This document shows, one piece after another, positions 7,105 to 45,266 of a stretch of DNA of 64,000 nucleotides. The notes beneath the pieces were generated by a model that worked only from the letters and a program-made list of their open reading frames with translations, did no database searches and had not been told where the DNA came from. The stretch covers positions 558,001 through 622,000 of the forward strand of contig NZ_RAPO01000003.1 of the NCBI RefSeq assembly GCF_003610195.1. Reading direction: 5' to 3'. The number at the start of each line of letters is the position of its first letter. Position 1 is the stretch's first letter. A program made the position numbers and the translations under genes. This DNA comes from Halopiger aswanensis. GTDB lineage: Archaea > Halobacteriota > Halobacteria > Halobacteriales > Natrialbaceae.

Positions 7105-8118
<1,014 letters not shown>

Positions 8119-8993: not shown

Positions 8994-9008
8994 CCGCAGG
9001 AAGGCGGG

Positions 9009-9671: not shown

Positions 9672-9694
9672 CGCGCGGTGCAACGGTGCCGAGC

Positions 9695-9703
9695 GGGATA
9701 AAG
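9695..9703 (-). promoter_or_regulatory. TATA box for HTH_10 regulator
   Basis: Minus-strand CTTTATCCC about 28 bp before the start at 9671, matching leaderless spacing; it supports the shorter start. Confidence 0.45.
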
Positions 9704-9825
9704 GGTCGAGACGGTTCGAATCGTCGTCCGAGCGGGTGGGTTCCCTCTCGAGTCTCGGGACAAGGCGGCGACCGCCGCGTCGACCGAGCGAAGGTTTCAA
9801 TTCCGTACCATTTGTTGGCGGTCGT

Positions 9826-10848: not shown

Positions 10849-11054
10849 TGTCCCGGCGAATCACCGCGACCGACGTCGTTTCCCTCCTTCGGCTGGCGGC
10901 GCTGGCCCTGCTGGTGAGCGGCTTCATCGGCTGGGTAGTCGAGGGTAGTGCGTTCGACCTCGAGTCGCCGTACACGGTCGCGTTCGGTGCCGGACTGGGC
11001 TGTGCGCTGGTCGCGATCTATCTGGGCGTCTTCCTCGCGAACCGCGGGGAGTGA
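10848..11054 (+). CDS. small two-span membrane protein
   Basis: 68 residues with two hydrophobic helices (LLRLAALALLVSGFIGWVV and YTVAFGAGLGCALVAIYLGVFLA) joined by a short acidic loop and ending in a basic/acidic tail. It starts on the A of the previous stop (TAATG), indicating a two-gene unit with the 340-residue membrane protein. Function unknown. Confidence 0.75.
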   Translation: MSRRITATDVVSLLRLAALALLVSGFIGWVVEGSAFDLESPYTVAFGAGLGCALVAIYLGVFLANRGE

Positions 11055-11114
11055 TCGCCGCCCCATCATTTCGATTCGAAAACGGTATCCCGCCGTCTCC
11101 GGTACTCCCGCGAC

Positions 11115-12209: not shown

Positions 12210-12237
12210 TACCGCGACGAACAGAGTGAGTTGTGGC

Positions 12238-12255
12238 TTTTTCATCGAACTTTTT
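12238..12255 (+). terminator. candidate T-tract terminator after the aminopeptidase
   Basis: Two T5 runs (12238-12242 and 12251-12255) lie 29-46 bp after the stop at 12209 in otherwise GC-rich DNA, as expected for archaeal oligo-T termination. Confidence 0.4.
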
Positions 12256-12306
12256 CCGCTCGGGTGGCTCACTGCGTTCGCCACCACTCGCGCAAAAACT
12301 TCGGTG

Positions 12307-12360
12307 CAGGTCGTGCAGCGAAACGGCACGTTCCGATTCGAGGACGGCTTCGACGACTAA
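12307..12360 (+). pseudogene. remnant of a second M29 aminopeptidase gene (3' end only)
   Basis: The 54 bp ending in TAA at 12360 align with the last 54 bp of the intact gene (12156-12209) with about 44 matches. They would encode QVVQRNGTFRFEDGFDD against EVVQRDGTFRFEDGFEE. Most differences are at third codon positions, so the copy evolved as protein before its 5' part was lost. The 94 bp between the copies holds T-tracts and a GGTGGC/GCCACC inverted repeat. It is a deletion scar of a tandem duplication, not an expressed gene. Confidence 0.75.
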
Positions 12361-12512
12361 CCGTCCGACTGATTTTTCGAGTTTCGATGGCTGCATCTCG
12401 GATAGCCCTACAAACGAACGTCGTCTACTACCGGTAACTGAGGCTGTGGATCGGTAGTTGTCAGGTGCATAATCGGTAAATACCATGCGTAACATATTGG
12501 AATGTAGACAGT

Positions 12513-13715
12513 ATGTCCGAGTTGCTTCTCGGTATCGGCGTCCTCGCCGCGGTCTTCGTCGGGTACAACGTCGGTGGCTCGACGACCGGTCCGGCGTTCG
12601 GCCCCGCGATCGGTGCCGGCGTCATCGGCAAGGGCGTCGCCGCCGCGCTCATGTCCGGCTGTTTCCTCCTCGGCGCGCTGACCGTCGGCCCGGAGGTCGT
12701 CCTGACCCTTTCGCGGGACCTCCTCCGCGATCCCTCCGTGTTCACCCTCCGCTCGAGCGTGGCCGTCCTGCTCGTGATCGGGGGCGCGCTGTTCCTCGGC
12801 AACTACGCGGGCGTCCCGGCGTCGACGTCGATGACCGCCGTCGGCGCCATCGCGGCGCTGGGTTCCGCGACTGGGACCCTCGCGTGGAGCGCGCTGGGCG
12901 AGATCGTCGTCGCGTGGCTGGTCGCGCCGGTCGTCGGCTTCTGGGTCGCCGGCGTCGTCGGTCGGTACTGGTATCCGCGACTCGCGGCTTGGCTCGCGCT
13001 CGAGGAGCGGGGAGCCGATCGCGCTCGAGCGCGACCGATGGTGACCGTGGTCTCGTCGGGACTCGTGCCGTGGCTCCGAATCCGTTCGACCGACGGGCGA
13101 CGGCAACGGATCGGAGCGGCGGCCGTCGTCGGCGTCGGCTGTCTGATGGCCTACGCCTCGGGGACGAGCAACGTCGCCAACGCCGTCGCGCCTCTCTACG
13201 CGATCGACGCGCTCGAGTTGGATGCGCTGATCCTGCTCGGGTCGGGTGCCGTCGCGCTCGGCGCGTTCACGATCGCCCGGCGCACGCTTGAGACGCTGGG
13301 CGACGACCTCACAAGGCTGCCGCTGCCGGCGGCGATCATCGTCGCCGTCATCAGTTCGGTGCTCGTCGTCGCGCTCTCGGCGGTCGGTATCCCGGCGAGT
13401 TTCGTCGTCATCGCGACGACCTGCATCATCGGACTGGGCTGGGGGCGGGCGACGCGAACGACGACGCTGGCCGACGCCGCTCGCGGCGAGGACACGCCGG
13501 TTTCAGTCGGCGCGCTGGCTGCGGACGATGAGAACGGCGACTCCGAACCCGCACCGCCGATCGGCGAGGAGACGGCAAGCGACGTTCCGGCGACGGCCGA
13601 GCTATTCGATCCCGCGACAACCGCCCGCGTGCTCGTCGTGCAGAACCTCGTGCCCGCGGTTGCCACGGTCGGCGCCTTCGTCCTGTTTCGGTTCGCTCCG
13701 GTCGTCGGGGCCTAA
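12513..13715 (+). CDS. PiT-family inorganic phosphate transporter
   Basis: 400 residues, roughly ten membrane spans in two inverted halves. The first PHO4 signature reads FVGYNVGGSTTGPAFGPAIG, the second ASGTSNVANAVAPLYAID. A hydrophilic loop (about residues 165-200) separates the halves and a second polar stretch lies near residue 330-365. PiT proteins import phosphate with a cation, probably Na+ in haloarchaea. The first signature lacks the usual ND pair, so substrate specificity (phosphate versus sulfate) carries some doubt. No phoU-like gene is adjacent; a Usp gene follows. Confidence 0.85.
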   Translation: MSELLLGIGVLAAVFVGYNVGGSTTGPAFGPAIGAGVIGKGVAAALMSGCFLLGALTVGPEVVLTLSRDLLRDPSVFTLRSSVAVLLVIGGALFLGNYAGVPASTSMTAVGAIAALGSATGTLAWSALGEIVVAWLVAPVVGFWVAGVVGRYWYPRLAAWLALEERGADRARARPMVTVVSSGLVPWLRIRSTDGRRQRIGAAAVVGVGCLMAYASGTSNVANAVAPLYAIDALELDALILLGSGAVALGAFTIARRTLETLGDDLTRLPLPAAIIVAVISSVLVVALSAVGIPASFVVIATTCIIGLGWGRATRTTTLADAARGEDTPVSVGALAADDENGDSEPAPPIGEETASDVPATAELFDPATTARVLVVQNLVPAVATVGAFVLFRFAPVVGA

Positions 13716-13731
13716 TCCCGACCCGCATCGG

Positions 13732-13740
13732 TCTTTATTG
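13732..13740 (+). promoter_or_regulatory. TATA box for usp gene
   Basis: TCTTTATTG about 28 bp upstream of the ATG at 13764, the usual leaderless distance; it suggests the usp gene has its own promoter despite being close to the phosphate transporter gene. Confidence 0.45.
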
Positions 13741-13763
13741 GCGTCGGCTCCGTACCGCCGATA

Positions 13764-14180
13764 ATGACCGTTCTCGTCGCCTACGACGGCTCCGACCCCG
13801 CACAGCAGGCGGTGACCTACGCGTTCGACGAATACGCCGACGACGAAATCGTCTTGTTGCGGGTCGTCGAGGTCGCAGACAGCTTCACCGAAGCAACCAT
13901 CCAGGCCATCGAGGAGACGCTCGCCGATCGGCGCAAAGCCGCGTCCGAGACCCTCCGCGAGGACCTCACGGAGTTAGTGACGACGACGGACGTCGAGTAC
14001 CGGGTCGAAACCGCGGCCGGCGATCCCGCTCGAGAAGTCGTCCGGTTCGCCGAGGAGCACGATGTCGATCACATTATCGTCGGCAGCCACGGGCGAGAGG
14101 GGGTCTCGCGCGTGTTGCTCGGCAGCGTGGCCGAACGAATCGTCCGCCGTGCACCGGTGTCGGTTACCGTGGTTCGCTAA
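13764..14180 (+). CDS. universal stress protein (UspA family), single domain
   Basis: 138 residues, one Usp domain. It begins MTVLVAYDGSDPAQQAV and ends with the ATP-binding type signature GSHGREGVSRVLLGSVAERI followed by VRRAPVSVTVVR. Cytosolic, likely dimeric. Usp proteins modulate stress physiology or accompany transporters; adjacency to the phosphate transporter is suggestive only. Confidence 0.92.
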   Translation: MTVLVAYDGSDPAQQAVTYAFDEYADDEIVLLRVVEVADSFTEATIQAIEETLADRRKAASETLREDLTELVTTTDVEYRVETAAGDPAREVVRFAEEHDVDHIIVGSHGREGVSRVLLGSVAERIVRRAPVSVTVVR

Positions 14181-14225
14181 TCGGCGGGCGACGGCGCAAT
14201 CCGCCGTCCGAATTCGGGGTACCCG

Positions 14226-14999
14226 CTACTGCGTGTTCGTCAGCCCGCCGTCGACCACCAGCGACTCGCCGGTGACGTAATCCGAGAGGTCGCTCGCCAG
14301 GTACAGCGCCGCGTCGGCGACGTCCTCCGGTTGACCCGCTCGCCGCGAGGGGATCATCTCGAGGAACTGGTCCTCCGCGTCCGTGCCGATGATCGGGAAG
14401 TCCTCGGTCGTCATCTTCGTCTCGATGAGTCCCGGATGGATCGCGTTCACCCGGATTCCGTCAGGTCCCAGCTTCGCCGCCATCGCGTAGGTCAAGAGTC
14501 GGACGGCCCCTTTCGTCCCGCAGTAGGTGACGAAATCGCCCGATCCCTCGAGGCCGGCGACCGACGAGAGGTTGATGATGCGGCCGCCGCCCGCGTCGAC
14601 CATCCGTTTCGCCGCGGCCTGCGCGCCGAAGTAGACACCCTTGACGTTGATATCCATCATCCGCTGGAAGTCGTCCTCCGCGACCTCGAGGAACTCCTCG
14701 CCGTGGAAGATGCCGGCGTTGTTGACCATCACGTCGACGCCGCCGAACTCCTCGGCCGCCTCGACTGCTCCCTCGAGGTCGTCGACGTTCGTGACGTCGC
14801 ACTCGACGTAGGTCGCACTGACCTCCTCTTCCTCCTCAACGAGGTCGTGAGTCGGCGTCCCGCCCTCGCGGGGTTCCTCCTGTACGTCTGCGATCACGAT
14901 GTCGGCCCCTTCTGCTGCGAACCGTCGGGCGATCTCCCGGCCGTTACCGCTCGAACCTCCTGTGACGACGGCGACGTCGTCTGTGAGCATTGGTGACAT
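14226..14999 (-). CDS. short-chain dehydrogenase/reductase (classical SDR)
   Basis: 257 residues from the ATG at 14999, chosen because a TATA box lies 28 bp upstream (15024-15032). The cofactor motif is TGGSSGNGREIA, an unusual Asn where the classical TGxxxGIG has Ile/Leu. NNAG follows, then the catalytic Ser (NLSSVAGLEG), Tyr and Lys (TYCGTKGAV), and NAIHPGLIETKMT. It should oxidise or reduce a hydroxyl/keto substrate with NAD(P); substrate unknown. A 15-residue EEEEE-containing insert near residue 50 is typical of haloarchaeal adaptation. Confidence 0.9.
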   Translation of the reverse strand: MSPMLTDDVAVVTGGSSGNGREIARRFAAEGADIVIADVQEEPREGGTPTHDLVEEEEEVSATYVECDVTNVDDLEGAVEAAEEFGGVDVMVNNAGIFHGEEFLEVAEDDFQRMMDINVKGVYFGAQAAAKRMVDAGGGRIINLSSVAGLEGSGDFVTYCGTKGAVRLLTYAMAAKLGPDGIRVNAIHPGLIETKMTTEDFPIIGTDAEDQFLEMIPSRRAGQPEDVADAALYLASDLSDYVTGESLVVDGGLTNTQ

Positions 15000-15023
15000 T
15001 GCACATGCCAGTACCACGTTTTT

Positions 15024-15032
15024 CTTTTAAAT
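15024..15032 (-). promoter_or_regulatory. TATA box for SDR gene
   Basis: Minus-strand ATTTAAAAG, 28 bp before the ATG at 14999; decides between the alternative starts at 15017, 14999 and 14990. Confidence 0.5.
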
Positions 15033-15129
15033 GTTGTTGACGATTCATCGAGGAAAGCGCCGAAACGCGACGTTGACCGCGAACGGAAGCGTTTCGCCGG
15101 ACGTCGCCGCTCGAGCGTTCGACCGGCGA

Positions 15130-15681
15130 TCAGTCCGACTCAGGAGAAATGAGTTGTACGTCACCGAGTTGCCCCACCGGCTGGTACTCGCAGCGGTAGG
15201 TGTCCATCTCCGGCGTCGCCTCGAACGCGAGCGTTTCGCGCTCCCCGAGCGTCTCGTTGCCCGGCGTCGAGTAGTCCTCGACGACCTCGCGATTTTCGTC
15301 CCAGAACGCGATGTTGTGGTGGATCCCGTCCTGATTCGTCCAGGTAAGTTCGTACTCCCGCCCCTCGACGAGCACCAGCGTCGGGTTCTCGACCAGTTCG
15401 ATCGGGGCCGGCTCGAGGCCAAGCCAGCCGCCGACGTAGCCGTCGAATCGGAGTTCGGTGACGTCCCGCCACGCCTCGGGGTCGGTGTTCGCGACGGTCG
15501 TCTCCGCGGCGTCGACGACGGGCTCCTCCGGGCCGTCGCCCTCGCTGTCGCCGCCACCGCCGCTACCCTCGTCGCTGCCGCTCAGACAACCGGCCAGCGA
15601 CGCTACGGCCGTCGCCCCGAGTCCCGTCAGGACCGCTCGCCGTCCGGTTTCGCCGCCGGTTCCGGTGCGGTTCGATCCCAT
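15130..15681 (-). CDS. exported cupredoxin-like lipoprotein with altered ligand loop
   Basis: 183 residues from the ATG at 15681. The twin-arginine start GRRAVLTGLGATAVASLAGC gives a Tat/lipobox anchor, followed by a Gly/Ser/Asp linker typical of haloarchaeal blue-copper proteins. The C-terminal domain has HHNIAFWD (first His ligand region) and TYRCEYQPVGQLGDVQL. In type 1 copper sites one expects Cys-x(2-4)-His-x(2-4)-Met; here the second His and Met positions appear to be Gln and Leu. The fold is probably cupredoxin, but copper binding is doubtful or atypical. Confidence 0.75.
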   Translation of the reverse strand: MGSNRTGTGGETGRRAVLTGLGATAVASLAGCLSGSDEGSGGGGDSEGDGPEEPVVDAAETTVANTDPEAWRDVTELRFDGYVGGWLGLEPAPIELVENPTLVLVEGREYELTWTNQDGIHHNIAFWDENREVVEDYSTPGNETLGERETLAFEATPEMDTYRCEYQPVGQLGDVQLISPESD

Positions 15682-15818
15682 CGTCGAACGTACTTCGCGT
15701 ACGTCCATAAGCGTGGGTTCACGGTGAGTGAACCGTCTTTGCGAGCGGACGGTTCCGGCTCGAGATCGATACTCCAGCGACCGAAGCGGCTTAGTGTAAT
15801 CACCGACGAATATACACC

Positions 15819-16487
15819 GTGAATTTCCCGAACTGGCAGACCTACCTCGTTACGCAGGCCTCGCTTTCCGAGGGGCGCTCGACCCTCGAGATCGTCGAGG
15901 CGGCGATCGACGGCGGGATCGACGCCGTCCAGTTGCGCGAGAAGGATACCGACGCGCGCCGGCGGTACGATCTCGGCCTCGAGGTGCGCGACCTGACCGC
16001 CGAGGCGGGCGTCGACCTGATCGTCAACGACCGCGTCGACCTCGCGCGGGCGATCGACGCCGACGGCGTCCACGTCGGCCAGTCCGATCTCCCGGTCTCG
16101 GTCGCGCGCGACCTGCTCGGCCCGGACCCGATCGTCGGCTGTTCGGCCTCGACGGTCGCGGAGGCCTGCGAGGCCGAAGCCGCGGGCGCGGACTACCTCG
16201 GCGTCGGCACGGTCTACGGCACCACCTCGAAGGACGTCGACCCCGAGCAGGACGGCGTCGGTCCCGAACGCGTCGCCGAAATCGCCGAGGCAGTTTCGAT
16301 CCCGATCGTCGGCATCGGCGGCATCACGGCCGACAACGCCGGCCCGGTCGTCGAGGCCGGCGCGACCGGCGTCGCGGTCATCTCCGAAATCGCCGCGGCC
16401 GACGATCCGCGGGCCGCGACCGAGGCCCTTGCACAGGCCGTCGAAACGGCGACGCCGCTCGAGAACGGAGGGATCACCAATGAGTGA
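15819..16487 (+). CDS. thiE: thiamine-phosphate synthase
   Basis: 222 residues with a GTG start. ThiE features include VQLREKD near residue 32, DLIVNDRVDLA, DGVHVGQSDL, VGCSASTVAEA, the loop GVGTVYGTTSKDVD and the phosphate-binding VGIGGITADNA. It joins hydroxymethylpyrimidine diphosphate and thiazole phosphate to thiamine phosphate. Its last 8 bases overlap the start of thiM, so the two are coupled. Confidence 0.95.
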   Translation: MNFPNWQTYLVTQASLSEGRSTLEIVEAAIDGGIDAVQLREKDTDARRRYDLGLEVRDLTAEAGVDLIVNDRVDLARAIDADGVHVGQSDLPVSVARDLLGPDPIVGCSASTVAEACEAEAAGADYLGVGTVYGTTSKDVDPEQDGVGPERVAEIAEAVSIPIVGIGGITADNAGPVVEAGATGVAVISEIAAADDPRAATEALAQAVETATPLENGGITNE

Positions 16488-17313
16488 GGACATCGACCTG
16501 GAGTCACAGGACCTCACGAACTCACTGGACGCCATCGCCGAGTCCGAACCGCTCGTCCACTCGGTGACCAACGAGGTGACGATGAACGACGTCGCGAACC
16601 TGATCCTCCACTGGGACGCGCTGCCGGTGATGGCCGACTCGGAGGGCGACGCCGGCGAGATGGCCGAACTGGCCGACGCGATCCTCTTCAACACCGGCCA
16701 GGTACCGGAGCGACGCGTCGACGCCATGCACGACGCCGCCGAGACGGCCAACGACCTCGGCACGCCGATCGTTCTCGATCCCGTCGGCGTCGGCGCGACG
16801 GCCACCCGCCGAAGCGTCGCCGAAGCCCTGCTCGAGTCGACCGACTTTGCGGTCATCAAGGGTAACTACGGCGAGATCAGCGCGCTAGCGGGCGTCGAGG
16901 CCGAAGTGAAGGGCGTCGAGTCGGTCGGCGACTACGAGGAGATCGAGGACACAGCGCAGTCGCTGGCCGAGTCGACCGGCGCGACGGTCGTCGCCAGCGG
17001 CGTCGAGGACGTCGTCGCAACCGAGGACGCCGTCTATCGGCTCGCCGTGGGCCACGAGATGCTCTCGACGGTCGTCGGCACCGGCTGCATGGTCGGCGCG
17101 ACGATCGCGGCCTTCCGCGGCGCGCTCGAGGACGATTTCGCCGCGGCCCTGCACGGGGCGCTCGCGTTCGGCCTCGCCGGCGAGCGCGCGGCCGACGCGA
17201 GCTACGAGGGACCGGCGAGCTATCGGACGGCGTTCCACGACACGGTGGCCGGGCTGTCGGGCGCGGATCTGGAAGCCGTCGACCTCGAGGCGCGGATCGA
17301 ACGCGTCGACTGA
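16480..17313 (+). CDS. thiM: hydroxyethylthiazole kinase
   Basis: 277 residues starting at the ATG overlapping the thiE stop (ATGAGTGA). Signature segments are PLVHSVTNEVTMNDVANLIL, the substrate loop, VLDPVGVGATATRR, VIKGNYGEISALAG and the nucleotide/catalytic loop GTGCMVGATIAAF with its Cys. It phosphorylates hydroxyethylthiazole for ThiE, so the operon salvages the thiazole half of thiamine. No TPP riboswitch fold was recognised upstream. Confidence 0.95.
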   Translation: MSEDIDLESQDLTNSLDAIAESEPLVHSVTNEVTMNDVANLILHWDALPVMADSEGDAGEMAELADAILFNTGQVPERRVDAMHDAAETANDLGTPIVLDPVGVGATATRRSVAEALLESTDFAVIKGNYGEISALAGVEAEVKGVESVGDYEEIEDTAQSLAESTGATVVASGVEDVVATEDAVYRLAVGHEMLSTVVGTGCMVGATIAAFRGALEDDFAAALHGALAFGLAGERAADASYEGPASYRTAFHDTVAGLSGADLEAVDLEARIERVD

Positions 17314-17373
17314 CGGCTCCCGCACCGTGACAGCGATCCGGGTGTTCCCGCGAGCGAGGGATTATTGAAACCG

Positions 17374-17381
17374 TTTTAGTA
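17374..17381 (+). promoter_or_regulatory. TATA-like element before the 90-residue gene
   Basis: TTTTAGTA, 26 bp before the ATG at 17403. Confidence 0.35.
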
Positions 17382-17402
17382 CCGACTGCCGAACGTCAGT
17401 AT

Positions 17403-17675
17403 ATGACGCGAGAAAACCTCGCAGACGCAGCCGAATCGCTTCAGACCGCAGCGGACGCGACCAGCAACGACGACGCGCGCGAGCGCCTCGAGAACCAATC
17501 GAGCGAGTTCGAGACCCTGGCGACGGCCGACCGCGGCCCGGACCACGGCAAACTCGCGCGCCACGAGCACATCCTCACGGACATCGCCGACGAAGAGGGC
17601 GGCGAGGTCGCCGCTCACGTCGAGGAGGCCCTCGAGTCGATCCGCGCGTTCCGCTCGACGGTCGAAGGGGTGTAG
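17403..17675 (+). CDS. small acidic haloarchaeal helical protein, unknown function
   Basis: 90 residues, strongly acidic, almost entirely predicted helical (MTRENLADAAESLQTAADAT, LARHEHILTDIADEEGGEVA). No signal peptide or membrane span. The pattern of short helices with conserved His residues in GKLARHEHIL suggests a small helical bundle. It resembles short conserved haloarchaeal proteins of unknown function; no role assigned. Confidence 0.7.
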   Translation: MTRENLADAAESLQTAADATSNDDARERLENQSSEFETLATADRGPDHGKLARHEHILTDIADEEGGEVAAHVEEALESIRAFRSTVEGV

Positions 17676-17743
17676 GCCCGAGTCGCCCGCCGACGCGCCC
17701 GGAAGCAGGGGTTACTTCCGCCGGTGCCCCGTGGCGGGCCGTA

Positions 17744-18265
17744 GTGAGCGACGTGATTACCGAGTACGCCGACTACGACGCGTTCGCCCGCGAGTGGCAC
17801 GCGCGGGACCTCGAGTCGCATTCGGTGACGCTGTCCGAGGCCCGAGCCCGGGGCCTGCTCAACGAACAGGACACGCGTCAGATCTGGCAGCTGCTGGACT
17901 TACTCGAGGACGACGAACTGTTCCTCCACCTTCCGCAGTGGCTGGCCGACGAGAAGGTCGACGGTGCGGACGGAGACGGGGACGCGCCGACGACGTTCGT
18001 CGGCCGTCTGTCCCGCGAAACCGACAAGGCGATTCTCGTCGAGGATTCGGCGGCGACGCACGCGCTGATGCGCCTCGCGCACGGAATCCGCTCGCTCGAG
18101 CGGGGCCTCGAGAACACCGGGGCCGACGCGGACCGCCGCGAGGAGTTAGAACAGCGGCTGCAAGCGAAGTACCGACAGTTCGAGACTCGCGAGGGGGCCG
18201 TCGGACTCGCGGACGAGTGGGTACCCAAGAGTCAGATCAGGAGCACCATTCGACGGCGGGAGTGA
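17744..18265 (+). CDS. conserved-looking haloarchaeal protein, unknown function
   Basis: 173 residues with a GTG start (MSDVITEYADYDAFAREWHA). Acidic, helical, with a hydrophilic insert around residues 75-85. The end carries VPKSQIRSTIRRRE. No recognised motif; a C-terminal helical hairpin (HALMRLAHGIRSLERGLENT) could be a dimerisation element. It converges on the ferritin-like gene. Confidence 0.65.
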   Translation: MSDVITEYADYDAFAREWHARDLESHSVTLSEARARGLLNEQDTRQIWQLLDLLEDDELFLHLPQWLADEKVDGADGDGDAPTTFVGRLSRETDKAILVEDSAATHALMRLAHGIRSLERGLENTGADADRREELEQRLQAKYRQFETREGAVGLADEWVPKSQIRSTIRRRE

Positions 18266-18308
18266 CCGGAACGGCGGCGTTTCGGCCTCCGGCTCGAGAT
18301 CGCGGGGA

Positions 18309-18944
18309 TCAGCAGACCGGCTTGGGGTTCGCGCCCATCGCTTCCATGTTCTCGACGTACTCGTCGTAGGCGGCCTCGATCGCGCCGTTAGCGGCCGCCT
18401 CGGCCTGCGCCCAGTCGTCGTCGCTCTCGCAGACGTCCTCGAGCAACTCCGTCGCGCGCTCGAGTTGCGCGTCCAGATCGCCGCCGAACTCCCGGAAGAC
18501 GCTGGCGGTCTGGGGACTGGCGTCGCCGACGAAGAAGCCGACGACCTGATCCTTCGAGCGCTGGCTCGCGAGGATGCGCCCGACGAGCGCGCCGACGCGG
18601 TCGACGGTCGAGTCGAGGCCGCGCAGGTACTCGTGGAGCGCGGGCACGTTCTGGGGCTCGTACTCCTCGTCGCCCAGTTCCTCGAGGACGGTCTCGAAGT
18701 GACCCTGTTCCTCCTCGGCCGTCGTTTCGAAGGCCTCGCGCGCGGCGTCGTGGTCCTCGTCGTCGGCCCACCCGCTGAAGGTCTGCCAGGCGGCGTGCTC
18801 GGCGTCGGCGGTCGCCTCGAGGACGGGCTCGGTGTCGATATCGCCGCCGGTGTCGGCGTACAGCGACTTCGAGGAGCCGAGCCGGGAGAGTTCGGTCTGG
18901 TTCTCGTCCTGAACGGTCTCGACGAACGCGTCGGCGTCGGTCAT
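18309..18944 (-). CDS. ferritin-like / rubrerythrin-family protein
   Basis: 211 residues, helical. Repeated Glu-rich helices fit a diiron four-helix bundle: EATADAEHAAWQTF (E..H) and TTAEEEQGHFETVLEEL (E..EQ.H), followed by a long second pair. There is no rubredoxin Cys motif; only a single Cys at the C-terminal tail and one in EDVCESDD. Likely cytosolic, perhaps in iron or peroxide handling; the assignment rests on the two EExxH-like helices. Confidence 0.65.
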   Translation of the reverse strand: MTDADAFVETVQDENQTELSRLGSSKSLYADTGGDIDTEPVLEATADAEHAAWQTFSGWADDEDHDAAREAFETTAEEEQGHFETVLEELGDEEYEPQNVPALHEYLRGLDSTVDRVGALVGRILASQRSKDQVVGFFVGDASPQTASVFREFGGDLDAQLERATELLEDVCESDDDWAQAEAAANGAIEAAYDEYVENMEAMGANPKPVC

Positions 18945-19023
18945 GGACGGTCGTTCGGGAGGCCGGGAGTTAGGCCTATCGTCATCGGCAGTGGTTTGCG
19001 GTCTCGAGGTGGCGACTGGCTAC

Positions 19024-19260
19024 CTATCCGTCGCCGTCTCGAGTACGCTCTACGTCGGCTGGCCGCGGACTGACGAGCCACCCGAGAACGAGGAGTACCG
19101 AACCGGCGAGGACGACCATCAGCAGCAGTTTTGCGACTGGTTGTAAGCCGCCGTATCCCTCGCCGATGCTGACGAACCCCGCGGCGAGGACGACGATCCC
19201 CACACAGAGCAGTTGGTTCGTCGCTTTGCGACTCGAGAGCCACGAGTCGTCGGTCATCAC
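19024..19260 (-). CDS. small two-span membrane protein
   Basis: 78 residues: a cytosolic start MMTDDSWLSSRKATNQ, two hydrophobic helices (LLCVGIVVLAAGFVSI and VAKLLLMVVLAGSVLLVLGWLV) separated by a Gly-rich loop, and an acidic tail. Gene-like by hydropathy and composition. Function unknown. Confidence 0.65.
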   Translation of the reverse strand: MMTDDSWLSSRKATNQLLCVGIVVLAAGFVSIGEGYGGLQPVAKLLLMVVLAGSVLLVLGWLVSPRPADVERTRDGDG

Positions 19261-19433
19261 CTTGGAAATCCAACTCGAGGGCAGTAACGGTTCCGATCCG
19301 AGCGGGTCAGGGACGCTCGCGTCGCGTGAAACAGGGCGTCGACATCCCGGTACCGACGGTACCGAGAGCGACGGCTACGGACGTCGACTCGCATCAAAAA
19401 TGAAACTGATCGCTTCGAACGACTACGCTGTCG

Positions 19434-20291
19434 TTAGTTACCCTTCTCGATCGGGGCGTTGACGAGGTTGCCCCACTCGGTCCAGGAGCCGTCGTAGTTG
19501 ACGGTGTCCTCGTAGCCGAGCAGTTCGTGCAGGGCGAACCAGGCGACGGAGGAGCGCTCGCCGATGCGGCAGTAGGCGACGGTCGTCTCGTCGCCGTCGA
19601 TGCCTTCCTCGGCGTAGAGTTCCTCGAGTTCCTCGGGGTCTTTGAACGTGCCGTCGTCGTTGGTCACGGCCGCCCAGGAGATGTTCTTCGCGCCGGGGAT
19701 GTGGCCGCCGCGCTGGGCCGTTTCGTTGAGTCCCGGCGGGGCGAGCACTTCGCCGCTGTACTCCTCGGGCGAGCGAACGTCGACGAGCGGAACGCCGCGC
19801 TCGATCGCGTTCTCGACGTCTTCACGGTAGGCGCGGATGCTCTCGCGCGGGCCGGCGGCGTTGTACTCCGTCTCGGAGAAGTCCGGCTCCTCGTCCGTGG
19901 TCGGGTAGTCGTTCTCGAGCCAGTACTCGCGGCCGCCGTCCAGCAACTTCGCGTCGTCGTGGCCGTAGTACTTGAACTGCCAGTAGGCGTAGGCGGCGAA
20001 CCAGTTGGAGTTGTCACCGTAGAGGACGACGGTGTCGTCCTCGCTGATGCCGTGACTGCCCAGCAGGTCCTCGAAGTCCTCCTTCTCGAGGATGTCGCGC
20101 TGGGTCTGGTCCTGGAGCTGCGTTTCCCAGTTGAACCCGATCGCGCCGGGTGCGTGCTCTTCCTCGTAGGCTTCCGTGTCGACGTCGACCTCCACGAGTC
20201 GGAGGTTCGAGTCGTCGTCCTGGAACTCGTCGAGGCGCTCCTCGACCCAATCGGCGTCCACGAGTACGTCTTTGGCGTAGTCGTCTGCCAT
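19434..20291 (-). CDS. double-domain rhodanese (thiosulfate sulfurtransferase-like)
   Basis: 285 residues from MADDYAKDVLVDADWVEE; two rhodanese domains in tandem. The N-domain (about 10-125) is degenerate at the active loop (VVLYGDNSN has Asp where Cys is expected). The C-domain has LVDVRSPEEYSGEV and the catalytic CRIGERSS loop. This architecture transfers sulfane sulfur from thiosulfate or 3-mercaptopyruvate to thiol acceptors or cyanide. The CRxGxR(S/T) loop is the thiosulfate-type. A second enzyme of the same architecture is divergently encoded 283 bp away. Confidence 0.92.
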   Translation of the reverse strand: MADDYAKDVLVDADWVEERLDEFQDDDSNLRLVEVDVDTEAYEEEHAPGAIGFNWETQLQDQTQRDILEKEDFEDLLGSHGISEDDTVVLYGDNSNWFAAYAYWQFKYYGHDDAKLLDGGREYWLENDYPTTDEEPDFSETEYNAAGPRESIRAYREDVENAIERGVPLVDVRSPEEYSGEVLAPPGLNETAQRGGHIPGAKNISWAAVTNDDGTFKDPEELEELYAEEGIDGDETTVAYCRIGERSSVAWFALHELLGYEDTVNYDGSWTEWGNLVNAPIEKGN

Positions 20292-28415: not shown

Positions 28416-28461
28416 GGTCGCGCGGCGACGGTTGTGTCGTCCTGCTCCGCCAGATCCCTCG

Positions 28462-29436
28462 TTACTCGATCCCGATGATCGGCTGGGGCTCGTAGGGCTC
28501 CTCGAGGTACTCGACGTCCGACTCCGAGAGGTCGATCTCGAGGGCCTCGACCGCGTCCTCCAGGTGCTCGACGCTGGTCGTGCCGACGATCGGCGCGTCG
28601 ACGTACTCGTTCTGGAACTGCCAGGCGAGCGCGATCTGGGCCATCGTGACGCCCTTCTCGTCGGCCAGTTCCTGCACCCGCTCGTTGATCTCGCGGCCGC
28701 CGCCGCGCTCGTACTCCGGCGCGGGGTTGTGGAAGTTGTCCGGATCGCCGCGTTCGGTCGCCTCGAGGTCCTCGACCGGGCGGGCGAGGTAGCCCTGCCC
28801 GAGCGGTCCCCACGGGATGACGGCGATATCGTTCGCGTCACAGAGGGGGAGCATCTCGCGTTCCTCCTCGCGGTAGGCCAGGTGGTAGTGGTTCTGCATC
28901 GTCTCGAAGGAAACGAGGTGCTCGCGTTCGCTCGTCCGGAGGCGCTCGGCCAACTGGTGGGCGTACATCGAACTCGTGCCGACGTGTCGGACTTTCCCGC
29001 GCCGGACCGCGTCGTCCAGCGCGCGGAGCGTGGTTTCGGGCGGCGTGTTCGGATCGACCCGGTGGGTCTGGTAGAGGTCGATGGTGTCCATGCCGAGTCG
29101 ATCGAGCGAGGCCTCGAGTTCCTGTTCGATGGTCTTTCTCGAGAGGCCCGCCGCGTTCGGGTGCTCGTCGCCCGAAGGGAACCGGACCTTCGTCGCGACG
29201 ACCATCTCGTCGCGGTCGTAGTCGGCGAGCACGTCGCCCAGGATTTCCTCGCTCTCGCCGTCGGAGTAGGCGTTCGCCGTATCGAAGAAGTTGATGCCGA
29301 GGTCGATCGCGCGCTCGATGAGCTCGCGGCTCTCCTCGCGGTCGAGCATCCACGGTTCCTCGCTGCCGAAGCTCATACAGCCCAGACAGAGCTCGCTCAC
29401 TTCCATCCCGGTCGAGCCGAGGGTGGTGTATTCCAT
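28462..29436 (-). CDS. aldo/keto reductase (AKR11/12-like)
   Basis: 324 residues from MEYTTLGSTGMEVSELCLGC. Tetrad: Asp in FFDTANAYSDGESEE, Tyr in the same motif, Lys in VVATKVRFPSG, His in LYQTHRVDPNTP. The NADP region PIVGTTSVEHLEDAVEALE closes the barrel. This longer AKR group reduces sugars or aldehydes. Unlinked to the other AKR in the window and only distantly similar. Start fixed by good similarity from residue 1. Confidence 0.92.
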   Translation of the reverse strand: MEYTTLGSTGMEVSELCLGCMSFGSEEPWMLDREESRELIERAIDLGINFFDTANAYSDGESEEILGDVLADYDRDEMVVATKVRFPSGDEHPNAAGLSRKTIEQELEASLDRLGMDTIDLYQTHRVDPNTPPETTLRALDDAVRRGKVRHVGTSSMYAHQLAERLRTSEREHLVSFETMQNHYHLAYREEEREMLPLCDANDIAVIPWGPLGQGYLARPVEDLEATERGDPDNFHNPAPEYERGGGREINERVQELADEKGVTMAQIALAWQFQNEYVDAPIVGTTSVEHLEDAVEALEIDLSESDVEYLEEPYEPQPIIGIE

Positions 29437-29564
29437 ACCGATCGATTGTGATGGTCGCGCACTTACAGTCCCGTGAATCGGCGATATCCACCCCTTCGTT
29501 CGCGCCGGTGCGGCCGATATCGCCGCGATTTCGGGCCGCGAACCGAGATCCGGGGTAGAAAAAA

Positions 29565-33636: not shown

Positions 33637-34125
33637 ATGGTCATGCGAATCCGGCTGGATGGGGACAGTGACGACTCCGACGACGCCGACGACCGGACGA
33701 TCAGGGAGTGGATACGAAACCCCTCGGATGTGGGTGGCGTGTTCGTCAGAGCCGCGATCGGGTCCATCGTGGCGACCTTTTTGTCCGTTCTCGGGCTCGT
33801 CGGCCAACTGCTCCTCGCTGCCGACGAGCCGCTCGTCGACGAACCGCACCTGGAAGAGCCGCTCACGGGATGGGTGTAGCTCGTCTCGCAGACCGCTGCG
33901 GGGGTCTCGGTGCTGGGATACGCCGTCTGGTCGGTGTGGAAGCAACGGCAGCTACGCTCCCGGAGCGAGTCGTCGCTGTTACGGGCGCTTCGACCCGCGG
34001 ACGGACACAGCAGCGACCCCGACGCGTACGAAACCCAGGTCAAAAACACCGTCTTTGCGCTTTTCCTCGCGGTCATCCTCGGCGCGCTTCCGTTCCAGAT
34101 CATCACCCACGCGCTCCTGTCTTAG
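33637..34125 (+). pseudogene. membrane-protein gene split by one in-frame TAG
   Basis: A single frame runs from ATG 33637 (or 33643) to TAA at 34125-region stop, interrupted only by TAG at 33877-33879 (after ...EPLTGWV). Both sides are gene-like: before it an acidic head and a span GGVFVRAAIGSIVATFLSVL; after it VSQTAAGVSVLGYAVWSVWK, a polar stretch and a final span KNTVFALFLAVILGALPFQ. Intact it would be about 162 residues. TAG is a normal stop elsewhere in this window, so a nonsense mutation is the simplest view. Function unknown. Confidence 0.7.
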
Positions 34126-34209
34126 CGGCTGGCCGCCTCCCAGCACAGCGGCGAGCCCGACTCGCCTCGAGCCCCGTCCTCTTTTGGACTCGAGGTGGAC
34201 GCCTCCCGT

Positions 34210-34350
34210 ATGCGGCTGTCGACGAAAGTGATCCTCGCGGCCCTCCTCTTGATCGCGATCCCGATTCCCGTCCTGCCGCCGCTGGTGGGAACCACGATCG
34301 GCGTGGTCCTGCTGTTGCTCGGGCTGTTCCTGCGATTCCTCGGAGTGTAA
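34210..34350 (+). CDS. 46-residue two-segment membrane protein
   Basis: Short frame of 46 residues: MRLSTKVILAALLLIAIPIP then VLPPLVGTTIGVVLLLLGLF and a basic end LRFLGV. Almost entirely hydrophobic, with a proline hinge in the middle. Intact, although both neighbours carry internal stops. Function unknown; reality judged from hydropathy and normal start/stop. Confidence 0.6.
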   Translation: MRLSTKVILAALLLIAIPIPVLPPLVGTTIGVVLLLLGLFLRFLGV

Positions 34351-34437
34351 TCGCAGGAATAGCGTCGGTGGTGAGACGCAGGTGCTCGAGCCGGCCCCTT
34401 CGAAACCGCTATCCGTCGGTCGCGTCCCGGTCGGGGT

Positions 34438-34815
34438 ATGACACAGCGACCGCTGTTGGTTCGTGCGCTCTGGTTCGTCTTCGTCGGCTGGTGGGCGACG
34501 CCGATCGTGGTCACCATCGCGTGGGCCCTGCACGTGACCGTGATCCTCGCACCCCTCGGCATCATGCTGATCAACCTCGTGCCGGCGGTCCTGACGGTAC
34601 AGGAACCGCGCTCGCGGCTGGACCCGGAGCAGGCCCGCGGGCAGCACCCGCTGATCGTCCGGGTGCTGTACTTCGTGCTGGTGGGCTGGTGGCTGAGTTT
34701 CTTCTAGGCGAATCTGGCGGTGCTGTGCGCGCTGACGATCGTCGGCCTGCCGGTTGCCATCTGGCTGGCGAACCGACTGCCCTCCGTCACGTCGCTGTAC
34801 CGTGTGCACGGATAG
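34438..34815 (+). pseudogene. YccF-domain membrane protein gene with in-frame TAG
   Basis: The frame from ATG 34438 to TAG 34815 is broken only by TAG at 34705-34707. The upstream part MTQRPLLVRALWFVFVGWWA...and the repeated LIVRVLYFVLVGWWLSFF, followed after the stop by ANLAVLCALTIVGLPVAIWL and ANRLPSV, is the duplicated YccF layout. In YccF proteins a Trp normally precedes ANLAWLL, so the codon is probably a TGG to TAG change. Intact length would be 125 residues. Truncated product would lose the second conserved block. Confidence 0.75.
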
Positions 34816-34836
34816 CGTTGACCGGCGAATCCACAC

Positions 34837-34846
34837 TGTTTATGCC
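34837..34846 (+). promoter_or_regulatory. TATA box for tRNA-Arg
   Basis: TGTTTATGCC about 30 bp upstream of the first tRNA base at 34871. Confidence 0.5.
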
Positions 34847-34870
34847 GGTCGATCCGTCATATGTGCTCGA

Positions 34871-34975
34871 GGGCACGTAGCTCAGTCTGGATAAGAGCGT
34901 CGGACTTCTATCCTCGTCGCGTCTGCGATGGGGGAAGACATCCGACGGTCGTGGGTTCAAATCCCATCGTGCCCG
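34871..34975 (+). tRNA. tRNA-Arg(TCT) with an intron in the anticodon loop
   Basis: Acceptor stem GGGCACG (34871-34877) pairs with CGTGCCC (34968-34974), discriminator G. The D-arm GCTC/GAGC, anticodon stem TCGGA/TCCGA and T-arm GTGGG/CCCAT with loop TTCAAAT all fold. The loop begins CTTCTA, anticodon TCT, then about 29 nt (34911-34939) are inserted before the 3' anticodon stem. The insert can form a CGTCGC/GCGATG hairpin with loop GTCT, as expected for an archaeal bulge-helix-bulge intron after position 37. No CCA is encoded. Confidence 0.9.
34911..34939 (+). other. tRNA-Arg intron (canonical position 37/38)
   Basis: 29-nt insert placed by keeping a 7-nt loop CTTCTAA in the mature tRNA. Exact ends could shift by a base. 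Too short to encode anything; removed by the archaeal splicing endonuclease. Confidence 0.75.
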
Positions 34976-34976
34976 T
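34954..34976 (+). repeat. att-like direct repeat, copy 1 (inside tRNA-Arg 3' end)
   Basis: 23 bp covering the T-loop, T-stem 3' side and acceptor stem of the tRNA. Identical to 35065-35087. A tRNA 3'-end duplication of this size is the classical mark of site-specific integration by a tyrosine recombinase. Confidence 0.8.
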
Positions 34977-35064
34977 GATTCTGCGACGAACGGACGTGAG
35001 GAGCGAATCACGAACGGAGATGGGTTGAAGTAGACGGCGGCGAGCGAACGCGAGCCGACGGCGT

Positions 35065-35087
35065 GGTTCAAATCCCATCGTGCCCGT
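35065..35087 (+). repeat. att-like direct repeat, copy 2
   Basis: Perfect 23-bp copy of the tRNA 3' end, 111 bp downstream of the first. The preceding bases also match apart from one missing G. No tRNA body precedes it, so it is a scar, not a second tRNA. The 88 bp between the copies has no gene. Confidence 0.8.
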
Positions 35088-35224
35088 CCGAAAACTATCG
35101 TTTTAGAACTTCTCTCAAGAAGTCCACTCGAAAGGTACTATCGTCCGTATTCGCGATATTCCAAATCAGAACGCCGCGCCTCGAGCAGCTATCCGAGTCT
35201 TGGCGGGCCGTGGGCTGTCTACAT

Positions 35225-35556
35225 TCATAATCCACCCTGAAGCGCCATGATTACGACCGTCAGGAATACCATCGGGAATGGCCACGCGACGATCGCCGCC
35301 AGCTCGTACCGGCCGTGACTTATGTCCCACGAGATCGCGAAGACCGCAGCGAGCAGTGCCACCGAGATATCCGCGCCCCGATGGTCCAGATTGCTCCCGT
35401 CAGGTTGTAGCCCCCGAATACGTCGATACTGATCGTGAACACGCCAAAGATCAGCGACGCGAAGAACGGCAGGAAGATCAGCGCCGCTACGTCGATCAGG
35501 TCGATTTCATTCTGTCCGCTCGGTCTCATCGAACCGATGTTCACTCGAGTTGCCAT
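35225..35556 (-). pseudogene. small membrane-protein gene with a 2-nt frameshift
   Basis: From ATG 35556 the frame reads MATRVNIGSMRPSGQNEIDL and a span VAALIFLPFFASLIFGVFTI up to GAIWTIG; it then becomes Arg-rich junk. Shifting by two bases in a GCGCG stretch (about 35380) restores ADISVALLAAVFAISWDISH, then two more hydrophobic stretches to a stop at 35225. A 2-nt CG insertion explains all of it. Corrected length is about 109 residues with three or four spans. Function unknown. Confidence 0.65.
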
Positions 35557-35673
35557 AGTGCGACGGCGAGCGGTCGCACCCGCCCCTACGAAAACCTCAG
35601 CAAAACCGTGGCACAACCTTGGTATCGCAGATAGTCACCACCATTTGTACCAAAGCGGGTTGCCGCCGCTGCT

Positions 35674-35859
35674 ATGGCGCTGAATAAACTCTGCCAGTTG
35701 GACCAGAACTAACTCGGTGTGACGCTCCCGAAAGACGATCTCCGTGTCGAGGGGTTGGTGAACGAAGACGGCGAACTCGAGGAAGAGCTTCACATTCATA
35801 TCCGGCATGTGGACGACGGCAAGTAGCAACTCGAACTCGTCAAGGCGATCGATATGTGA
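35674..35859 (+). pseudogene. small AbrB-like gene remnant with two internal stops
   Basis: One frame of 61 codons with TAA at 35710-35712 and TAG at 35824-35826. Around the stops the translation is coherent: LGVTLPKDDLRVEGLVNEDG, ELEEELHIHIRHVDDGK, then QLELVKAIDM. The GVTLPKDDL-R-GL pattern resembles SpoVT/AbrB-type swapped-hairpin proteins, where a Trp is common before QLEL, so TAG may again be a TGG to TAG change. Non-functional as it stands. Confidence 0.55.
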
Positions 35860-35995
35860 TCGAAACGGATGAAATGTATTTTAGAACGGATTATATACTA
35901 TGATCTGATGGAAACAGTGCTCCTGTTATTCTAGACAAGACCAGCTAAGTAGCCGCATATGCGATACAACGCCCAAAAAATCAGTGGTTATTTGC

Positions 35996-36451
35996 TTAGA
36001 AGTCCCACTCAGCAGAGCCAATAACGGTCTCAGCGTTACCGTCAACAGCAACGATGTTCACTTCACCAGAATCCAGAAGATGGCCAGTCGAGGTACTGTT
36101 CCCAATCGTCACAGTACTCCCGACGCCACTAAAGCTAAGTTCTGTTTCTCCATTACTAACGTCGGGGTGGCTGTCATCAAGCCCAGTGCCATTACGAATG
36201 TAGAACTCCTCAGCATTCCCTTCCTGTTCAAGGGTGAACGTTACTTCTCCGTCAGTGTTACTGACATCAGTATCAACAGCAGCGTTCACGGAACCTTCGC
36301 CCATGCTGTCACCCATATCTAGGACGAATGTCGCGATCACGGCAGCCAGAATCACAGTAATAGCCACCATGAGGATGACGCCGATAACGGGCGATACGGC
36401 GCGTTGTTCTTCCGATCCGACCAGTTTGTCACGCATTAGTTTCAGATCCAT
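35996..36451 (-). CDS. type IV pilin (archaeal pilin, N-terminal class III signal)
   Basis: 151 residues. The N-terminus has a charged head then RAVSPVIGVILMVAITVILA, the archaeal pilin N-terminal domain (DUF1628-type) with a conserved hydrophobic helix that is cut by a prepilin peptidase and packs into the filament. The mature domain is Ser/Thr/Asn/Gly-rich with NGT and NST sequons for N-glycosylation. Its base composition is clearly more AT-rich than neighbours. No pilB/pilC-type genes are nearby, so it is an isolated pilin within the tRNA-adjacent region. Confidence 0.9.
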   Translation of the reverse strand: MDLKLMRDKLVGSEEQRAVSPVIGVILMVAITVILAAVIATFVLDMGDSMGEGSVNAAVDTDVSNTDGEVTFTLEQEGNAEEFYIRNGTGLDDSHPDVSNGETELSFSGVGSTVTIGNSTSTGHLLDSGEVNIVAVDGNAETVIGSAEWDF

Positions 36452-36480
36452 GTATTCTCATGCGCCGTGAACGGTCGGAA

Positions 36481-36490
36481 GGATTATACA
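36481..36490 (-). promoter_or_regulatory. TATA box for pilin gene
   Basis: Minus-strand GTGTATAATC about 33 bp before the ATG at 36451. A second AT box (GGTATATATAATTT, 36593-36606) lies further upstream and may be another promoter. Confidence 0.5.
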
Positions 36491-36777
36491 CAGTGGTAAG
36501 GTACCACCGACTGCACGGGGGGATTGGACACACATCCCGTTGCACCCTTCCTTGCCGCTCCGATTTGGCGCTGATAACTACCAGTGGAAGCGGGGTATAT
36601 ATAATTTCCCGATAGTGTATTCGATCGAACGAAAAGACGGTCATATACGCTTTCAGGTCTGATAATTAGGCGCCTGTAGAACATCTACAGCACCGGCTTG
36701 AAGCAACGCCGTCTTGTGATTTCGGTTCTATCCCTCGAGTCAGTAGTTACTTGATACGTCTTTCGTGACGGAATTGT

Positions 36778-37375
36778 ATGACTGTGGATGGCCCACTACC
36801 GACCGAGCGTGGCTTCGCGCGCACCTACGGCGGCGGCTACTACGAGGACGCGGCGTCGGTCGTTGAGCAGTGCTACGACGTGCTCGCGTACGCACGCAAG
36901 CACGACGCAGGCTCGGCGGCAACCGCATCGGCTCTGGACCTGCCCCGGTCGCGGCTGCGGACGTGGATCGACGACAGTGGGGTACCCGATCCGGTTCATG
37001 CGGTCGAAACGGCGCGAGACTCAGGTGGCTCGAGTACGAATTTGATAACCCGGAGTTCGTTGGCCCGAACGCTCTCATCGCGAACGTCTTCTCCCGCAGA
37101 TCGATCGCCGAAGAGGACTACCGACCGTGTACGCGATCAATCACCGTGGTGAAGATAGCCACGTCTTCGACGCTCTCGAGTTGGCCGGGGTCGAGTACCA
37201 GGTCGTCGATGATCGCGACGGCCGAGCAAACGAAGTTCGACCGGCGGAGGCCGTGCCAGTATACCTCGAGGTCGCTCCGACTAGCGTTCGCGAGACGTTT
37301 GTGTACGCATATTTGGAAATGGAATCGCTACAACTGCTATTCTCGGAGTTACACATTGGCAAAAACAGCGCGGAT
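36778..37375 (+). pseudogene. decayed haloarchaeal HTH-type gene, two frameshifts and a likely deletion
   Basis: Three frames carry one coherent protein. Frame a from 36778: VEQCYDVLAYARKHDAGSAA, TASALDLPRSRLRTWIDDSG (helix-turn-helix-like), PDPVHAVETA. From about 37020 frame b: WLEYEFDNPEFVGPNALIAN, SIAEEDY. From about 37128 frame c: YAINHRGEDSHVFDALELAG, EYQVVDDRDGRANEVRPAE, then VYLEVAPTSVRETFVYAYLE. The join between RPAE and VPVYLE looks like an internal deletion. Frame c stays open into the next gene by chance. Confidence 0.6.
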
Positions 37376-37444: not shown

Positions 37445-38620
37445 ATGGACGACACCGCAACCAACCCCGCCGCGACCGTCCCCGAGGTCGACAGCTTCGC
37501 GGAACAGGCCCGCCGGCGCGCCGAAACCGAACGGGAGGCCGTCGGGTGGGCGATCGACGAACTCGAGACCCTCATCGACGCCCGCGGCGTCGACCTCGAG
37601 CCGTTGCTCGAGTACGCTCGGCGCAGCCGCGAGAGCCTGCCGGATCGCTACCGGCGGGCCTACGAAGCGATGGCGGACGTGTTCGACGTCGACGCGCCGG
37701 TCTACGAGGTCTACGTCTTCGCGTACTCGGAACTGTGCGAGGAACTGGCCGAGGGCCCCGAACCCTGCTCGGAGAAGAACCCGAAGGGGTGTACGAACGC
37801 GCTCGTGGCCGAGTCGTCGGTCGCCGACGGAGCCGACGCCGCCGGCCCGCTGGTGTTCAAGAACCGCGACATCGCGGGGCGGGGCCTGCGCCCGAAGTCA
37901 ATCGTCGAACAGCCGCCGATCGACGACTATCACGGCATCCTGACGATCGATACCTGCGGTACGATTTCGATGTTTAAAGGGGTCAACGATCAGGGACTGG
38001 TCGCCGCAAATACCTACATCGACAGCGAGTCCGCCGACGTCGACCCCGAGGATCAACTGCGCAACGGTACCGTCATCCGGACGCTCTTGGAGGAGTGTGC
38101 GACCGTCGACGCAGCCCGCGCAAAACTCGAGTCCCACCCCACGAAACACCTGATGGGCCAGACGCTGTTTCTCGCCGACGAGACCGATGCCGTCTTGCTC
38201 GAGGTCGACCCCGCTGCCGAGCGGATCGCGGCCGACGAGGGGCCGATCGCCACCCGAACGAACCACTTCGTCATCGCCGAGTCGACCGAGGCCAGGAGTT
38301 CCACGAAGCGACGCCGTCGCGCCCTCGAGTTGCTCGATGACCTCGAACCGCTCACCCGCGAGGACCTCTGGACGATCGCCCGCGACCACGAGCACGGCCC
38401 CGGCGACAACTCGATCTGTCGTCACCCCGAACCCGAGGCCGGCGAGTACGCGATGGGCCAACTCACCACCGCCAGCACGGCTGTCTTCGAGGGCGGTACG
38501 CCGACGATCGAGGTCGCGATGGGCAACCCCTGCGAGGGCGAGCGGCTGCGGTACTCGTTCGGCGACGCGGTGCCGGCCGACCTGCGGACGGGCCGGCGCT
38601 GGCTCGAGGGGATGAGCTAA
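37445..38620 (+). CDS. C45-type autoproteolytic acyltransferase/hydrolase (Ntn fold)
   Basis: 391 residues from the ATG at 37445 (MDDTATNPAATVPEVDSFAE); the open frame extends upstream only into the decayed gene. The N-terminal helical region is followed by KGCTNALVAESS, where the Cys would become the N-terminal nucleophile after self-cleavage, then VFKNRDIAG (Asn/Arg-Asp motif), GVNDQGLVAANTYID and TRTNHFVI. This is the acyl-CoA:6-APA acyltransferase / penicillin V acylase-like family, cleaving or transferring amide-linked acyl groups. Substrate unknown. It precedes GshA, convergently. Confidence 0.85.
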   Translation: MDDTATNPAATVPEVDSFAEQARRRAETEREAVGWAIDELETLIDARGVDLEPLLEYARRSRESLPDRYRRAYEAMADVFDVDAPVYEVYVFAYSELCEELAEGPEPCSEKNPKGCTNALVAESSVADGADAAGPLVFKNRDIAGRGLRPKSIVEQPPIDDYHGILTIDTCGTISMFKGVNDQGLVAANTYIDSESADVDPEDQLRNGTVIRTLLEECATVDAARAKLESHPTKHLMGQTLFLADETDAVLLEVDPAAERIAADEGPIATRTNHFVIAESTEARSSTKRRRRALELLDDLEPLTREDLWTIARDHEHGPGDNSICRHPEPEAGEYAMGQLTTASTAVFEGGTPTIEVAMGNPCEGERLRYSFGDAVPADLRTGRRWLEGMS

Positions 38621-44756: not shown

Positions 44757-45266
44757 ATGATCTCCGCTCTCGTCGACGCCGGCTACGCTGCGCTGCTGGC
44801 GTACGGGTTGCCCGCACTGTTCGTCCTGTTCATCGTCAAGGGGGCGATCATCGGCAAGCCGTTTCCGACGTCGGTCTTTCTCCCCGGCTACATCGTCGCC
44901 GTCTCGGCGTCGCGGTGGACGATCGTCGCGAGCGTTCTCGTCGCGTCGCTTGGCTACACCTGCGGCCAACTGCTAATATACTGGCTGGCGGCCGCTCGCG
45001 GCCGCGAGGCGGTCGAATCGCTGCCCCGCGTCTCGATCACCGACGATCAGTACGCCCGAGCGGAGCGGTGGTTCCAGCGATACGCTGGTGCCGGGATCGT
45101 GATTACGAACCTGGTCCCGTACGTCGGCAGCTTCATCATGATCCCGGCGGGAATCGCGTCGTACCCGTTCGAACGGGCGGCGTTCTACGCGTTGACCTCG
45201 ACGCTGCTGAACTACGTGCTGATCGTCTGGGTCGTCGTCGGCTCCGTGCAGTTCGTTACCGGTTGA
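44757..45266 (+). CDS. VTT/DedA-like membrane protein
   Basis: 169 residues, about five hydrophobic segments. GKPFPTSVFLPGYIVAVSAS is the re-entrant loop, VLVASLGYTCGQLLIYWLA follows, and NLVPYVGSFIMIPAGIASYP contains the conserved glycine-rich loop near F.R. This group of flippase-like proteins is related to the DedA/VTT family. Smaller than full DedA (about 200). Role inferred as lipid or ion-related membrane function. Confidence 0.75.
   Translation: MISALVDAGYAALLAYGLPALFVLFIVKGAIIGKPFPTSVFLPGYIVAVSASRWTIVASVLVASLGYTCGQLLIYWLAAARGREAVESLPRVSITDDQYARAERWFQRYAGAGIVITNLVPYVGSFIMIPAGIASYPFERAAFYALTSTLLNYVLIVWVVVGSVQFVTG

Follow-up and report, generated by a model that had tools for sequence, protein, structure and literature searches.

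The temperate betapleolipovirus SNJ2 (NC_074646) infects Natrinema sp. J7-1 and has a tRNA-Met gene as its integration site (PMC5867852). tRNA-Arg(TCT) is one of the tRNA genes of archaea at which integration is most frequent (reviewed in PMC8371274). In Haloquadratum, partial tRNA duplications are left by prophage integration (PMC3119063).

The locus described here lies within 64 kb of DNA from a haloarchaeon (genome G000, contig C3, positions 558001-622000; assembly of 17 contigs), referred to below as the window. An earlier note on this DNA claimed that five broken genes are clustered within 3.7 kb around a tRNA, in an otherwise mostly intact region, and ascribed them to relaxed selection or to repeated insertion and loss. 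All five lesions are present in the sequence. However, these are not five independent decays. Two causes very probably meet at the tRNA-Arg(TCT) hot spot, namely the erosion of an SNJ2-like provirus relic downstream of the tRNA and the drift of two dispensable host genes upstream of it.

Distribution of lesions in the window

The features around the tRNA are listed in Table 1. The tRNA-Arg(TCT) gene itself was detected with Rfam, as ARAGORN missed it in the window.

Table 1. Features at the tRNA-Arg(TCT) site (positions are those of the window).
Feature	Position	Strand	Description
Gene A	33637-34125	+	162-codon membrane-protein frame; TAG at codon 81 (33877-33879)
Gene C	34438-34815	+	YccF family; TAG at codon 90 (34705-34707)
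tRNA-Arg(TCT)	34871-34975	+	29-nt intron at 34911-34939; integration hot spot
Double-hairpin unit	34976-35086	+	ends in direct copy of the tRNA 3' end (35065-35086)
Relic left end	35087-35165	+	abuts the tRNA-end copy in the hairpin unit
Gene D	35228-35556	-	SNJ2 gp12 (VP12) family, PHROG 3232; frame change near 35365-35377; 3'-truncated, C-terminal part lost
Gene E	35674-35856	+	SNJ2 gp11 family, PHROG 6313; TAA at codon 13, TAG at codon 51
Gene F	35996-36451	-	SNJ2 gp10 family, PHROG 16897; intact, 151 codons, pilin-like
Gene G	36778 to about 37330	+	SNJ2 gp09 family, PHROG 14115; frame changes at about 37020 and 37127; 3'-truncated
Host gene, far side of integration site	37445-38620	+	PF03417 acyltransferase family

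The window was compared gene by gene with a syntenic 108 kb region of the sister species G001, the sole other species compared within the genus. For most of the 68 genes predicted in the window, G001 has a counterpart of full length. The few gene pairs that were flagged can apparently be put down to the choice of start site or frame, or to a split in the G001 copy. No other host gene in the window is clearly broken, in agreement with the earlier note, and the concentration of lesions at the tRNA is therefore real. Four ORFs of the window (12513-13715, 14226-15017, 28432-29451 and 44757-45266) have no counterpart in the syntenic G001 region.

Since three of the broken genes (D, E and G) belong to one element, the lesions of the five genes are not independent. 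D, E and G share a single cause, whereas A and C are host genes that lie on the other side of the tRNA.

The intron of tRNA-Arg(TCT) is present in 18 of 106 genomes with a match, and its distribution is patchy even inside genera. It is commoner where a provirus sits (5/18 versus 3/88, Fisher p 0.003), in a set of genomes that cluster by genus. Given this clustering, and given the position of the attachment core on the 3' side of the intron, a link between intron and provirus is not claimed.

The provirus relic downstream of the tRNA

Genes D, E, F and G fall into the PHROG families of SNJ2 gp12 (structural protein VP12), gp11, gp10 and gp09, and their order and relative orientation are also those of SNJ2. 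As in SNJ2, this collinear block is found at a site at the 3' end of a tRNA. The two differ in that the site is tRNA-Arg(TCT) here but tRNA-Met in SNJ2 (PMC5867852), in that nearly all other genes of SNJ2 are missing, and in that three of the four surviving genes are broken. For the integrase, NTPase and spike genes, all of which are present in the G001 provirus described below, no counterpart was found in the window. The window holds a relic, not a complete SNJ2-like provirus.

From the tRNA side, the relic consists of the left end, a deletion, truncated D, E, F, truncated G, a second deletion in which the integrase and the right end have gone, and then the host gene. The element has shrunk from about 16 kb to 2.3 kb. 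Gene G is without 72 nt that are present in the G001 copy, and its C-terminal third is lost. Broken D, E and G together with intact F are best explained as the eroded relic of an SNJ2-like, betapleolipovirus-like provirus, an identity based on these four small genes together with the left end and the site.

Gene E matches PHROG 6313 (E 1e-24) and is 81% identical in amino acid sequence to its copy in the G001 provirus. It had previously been described as an AbrB-like gene with two stops. The stops are present, but neither gene E nor its intact homologues matched any Pfam domain, AbrB-type domains included, and the AbrB identity is without Pfam support at E<0.1. A search of IMG/VR with the 61-aa protein E gave no confirmed relative.

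Gene F encodes the archaeal pilin N-terminal domain Pilin_N (PF07790, E 2.9e-17), and SNJ2 gp10 is itself a Pilin_N protein. As compared with their viral homologues, E and F have dN/dS values near 0.1-0.2, which would be expected either if the decay is recent or if the constraint dates from viral life. The possibility that F (dN/dS about 0.2) is a domesticated pilin was considered but is unproven, as the constraint could have the latter origin. Furthermore, with about five lesions per 1.06 kb in the neighbouring genes, it is not very unlikely that 456 nt would stay unbroken, and domestication is therefore not inferred.

SNJ2-like viruses regularly carry a Pilin_N gene, in which the N-terminus is conserved and the C-terminus varies strongly; between two copies, dS is about 0.3 in the N-terminal and 1.4 in the C-terminal part. 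Copies are found in the window (35996-36451), at two positions in G001 (L113, 6818-7261 and 2971-3423) and in SNJ2 (gp10), and the gene is intact in both relics, that of the window and the second relic of G001.

Proviruses and empty sites in related genomes

In G001, tRNA-Arg is followed by an SNJ2-like provirus (L113, about 3738-19622). Its order is DUF7845 protein, NTPase, 282-aa membrane protein, a 620-aa protein in the position of the spike, D, E, F, G, integrase and right attachment site. The NTPase, the 282-aa membrane protein and the SNJ2-type integrase are respectively 76%, 63% and 62% identical to those of SNJ2. The tRNA, left end and gene order are common to this provirus and the window relic. 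However, the G001 provirus is full-length, includes the integrase and enters at the tRNA itself, whereas the window relic is joined not to the tRNA but to the tRNA-end copy of the hairpin unit.

The left end, CGAAAACTATCGTTTTAG or close variants of it, is found directly 3' of tRNA-Arg(TCT) in G015, G016, G070, G072 and G077, as well as in G001, and part of it is found in G037. The elements of G015, G016, G070, G072, G077 and G037 each encode an integrase 75-90% identical to that of G001. Related proviruses with left end and integrase at tRNA-Arg(TCT) are thus present in seven genomes of the family. The integrase of the G015 provirus (L118, 15951-16993) is split over two frames, and this provirus also seems to be decaying. 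In G103, G104 and G108 the site is empty, and the host gene starts about 230-760 bp past the tRNA.

A second relic in G001, which includes F and the start of G, lies beyond the provirus and adjoins the counterpart of the PF03417 host gene. The older relic is found past the hairpin unit in both species and is joined to the second tRNA-end copy, which is degenerate in G001. The F-G intergenic regions of the window relic and the G001 second relic are 90% identical. That the two represent one shared old insertion is not kept as shown, given that the dS of F between them is 0.76 as compared with a median of 0.25 for 37 core genes. As a minimum of two insertions is evident at this site in G001 either way, repeated insertion and loss is supported. 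This part of the earlier interpretation is upheld for downstream genes D, E and G, which come from a single provirus relic at a tRNA that is hit again and again, but not for upstream genes A and C, for which no link to insertion was seen. The turnover of tRNA-targeting archaeal viruses is visible at this single site, with empty, intact, doubly hit and eroded states in one family.

Two host genes upstream of the tRNA

Gene C was identified as a member of the YccF family (PF03733; 35.2 bits against a cut-off of 27, E 2e-8). It is like the YccF genes of relatives in this match and in its position adjacent to tRNA-Arg, but differs from them by the TAG at codon 90 and by extra changes at conserved sites. 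A YccF match was obtained in 44 of 125 family genomes (own genome included), and most of these genes are intact.

The earlier note had proposed a comparison with orthologues, and in this comparison the homologues of both genes have a tryptophan codon (TGG) and not TAG at the stop position, this being the case in 29 of 29 homologues examined for gene C and in all six closest homologues for gene A. Gene A differs at 9 of 44 otherwise conserved positions. Gene C differs at 8 of 61, a number that equals that of homologues with only 55-57% identity, whereas homologues with ~70% identity differ at 0-4. Neither gene was found in G001, in which there are only short stretches between the upstream neighbour and the tRNA, and A and C are therefore dispensable.

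These findings fit an interpretation of A and C as dispensable host genes under relaxed selection, each inactivated by a single TGG-to-TAG change. The stops would accordingly be due to relaxed selection rather than to a strain-level or sequencing event. Relaxed selection, as suggested in the earlier note, fits only these two genes, with their excess of changes at conserved sites and their absence from G001, and is not the explanation for D, E and G, which are pieces of the provirus relic.

Origin of the lesions

The favoured explanation draws on the homology, order and orientation of the downstream genes, the structure of the attachment site, the proviruses and empty sites of relatives, and the tryptophan codons at the TAG positions. 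An SNJ2-like, betapleolipovirus-like element would have integrated downstream of the tRNA, at the tRNA-end copy (35065-35086). Most of its genome, including the integrase, right attachment site, NTPase, spike and late genes, would then have been deleted, and the surviving counterparts of gp12, gp11 and gp09 would have gathered stops, frameshifts and truncations, with the pilin-like gp10 counterpart still open. Upstream of the tRNA, two small membrane-protein genes that are missing in many relatives would each have been inactivated by a TGG-to-TAG change and would now be drifting.

The presence of five broken genes inside 3.7 kb could also suggest a single process, in which recurrent insertion and excision at the tRNA would account for the damage to all five, including the upstream host genes, and G001 is also without both genes on the upstream side of its tRNA. 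However, A and C are affected by plain point mutations at tryptophan codons, with no insertion footprints, every provirus examined enters 3' of the tRNA, and YccF is missing, partial or broken in many family genomes irrespective of the provirus state. A decay process common to the five genes is not supported and appears very unlikely. Sequencing or assembly errors are a very improbable source of the lesions, even in an assembly of 17 contigs. Errors are conceivable in principle for the single-base lesions of A, C and E, but not for the large truncations of D and G, genes that are cut by deletions relative to their homologues in an element that has shrunk from about 16 kb. In A and C, each stop is a clean TGG-to-TAG substitution and is accompanied by further changes at conserved positions, and none of the remaining host genes in the 64 kb is clearly affected.

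Three of the four in-frame stops are TAG, all three fall at a tryptophan codon of the homologues, and the frames are open on either side of them. Readthrough of TAG, by means of pyrrolysine, an amber suppressor tRNA or programmed readthrough, would leave A, C and perhaps E functional, but is scarcely credible. TAG is an ordinary stop here, terminating 12 of the 56 predicted window genes of more than 100 codons. PylS was not found above the cut-off (33 bits versus 178, as in genomes without Pyl), and there is no CUA anticodon among the 43 tRNAs found, a list that does not include tRNA-Trp. Conserved sites are eroding in A and C, both of which are missing in the sister species, and E carries a TAA in addition to its TAG. 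The origin from two causes, an eroded relic and two drifting host genes, is therefore retained.

The tRNA-tail hairpin unit

The relic and the broken host genes are mostly of an ordinary, known kind, and the unexpected part of the locus is the segment between the tRNA and the left end of the relic. The earlier note took it for an integration scar. Instead, the second tRNA end is part of a tRNA-tail hairpin unit that is also found at provirus-free tRNAs. The fold of the unit consists of two hairpins. Compensatory changes and an invariant CGAnC...CGnGAG core are seen in the first; in the second, the 5' arm is an inverted copy and the 3' arm a direct copy of the 3' tail of the tRNA.

In the same genome, 15 of the 43 tRNAs have a copy of their own last 20 nt within about 120 nt downstream (at least 16 of 20 positions identical), 13 of them at 18/20 or better. 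Shuffled pairings of tRNAs and downstream regions gave means of 1.4 and 0.1 at these respective thresholds, and the tRNAs' own upstream regions gave none. Units at the 14 other tRNAs include, for example, C3:10937-11050, C2:84106-84213 and C2:268823-268932.

A covariance model of the unit, with at most 20 candidates scored per genome, found matches in 191 of 194 Halobacteria genomes. Thirty hits were fetched, one per genome and from several families, and in 24 of them the unit begins no more than 2 nt from the tRNA end and closes with the tail of its own tRNA as far as the hit extends; a 20-nt threshold, which hits that are cut off cannot reach, gives one. A similar unit of about 60-120 bp is found 3' of tRNA-Arg in many provirus-free genomes. 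In G001, G015, G016, G070 and G072 its position is beyond the provirus, immediately past the right attachment site, and the unit is therefore older than the insertion in these genomes.

The second tRNA-end copy (35065-35086) is hence not a simple scar of this provirus. It is like the partial tRNA duplications of Haloquadratum in being a direct copy of the tRNA 3' end downstream of a complete tRNA, but differs in that it sits in a conserved double-hairpin unit that also includes an inverted copy and that is found at provirus-free tRNAs as well. A search of phage and plasmid records with one hairpin unit gave no match, and no description of such a unit was found in a limited search of the open literature. 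The segment at 34976-35086 is tentatively assigned to a family of tRNA-linked units that occurs throughout the class and has apparently escaped description. Such units may represent minimal integrative elements, or they may serve tRNA-targeting integrases as secondary attachment sites that substitute for the tRNA.

As a widespread hairpin unit carries such a copy, a second tRNA end beside an archaeal tRNA should not be read by default as an integration scar, and the tail copy of the unit affects the calling of integration sites in Halobacteria. At tRNA-Ser(TGA) of the sister species (L007), there are two units in tandem, and a full copy of the tail of that tRNA is found at the second unit only.
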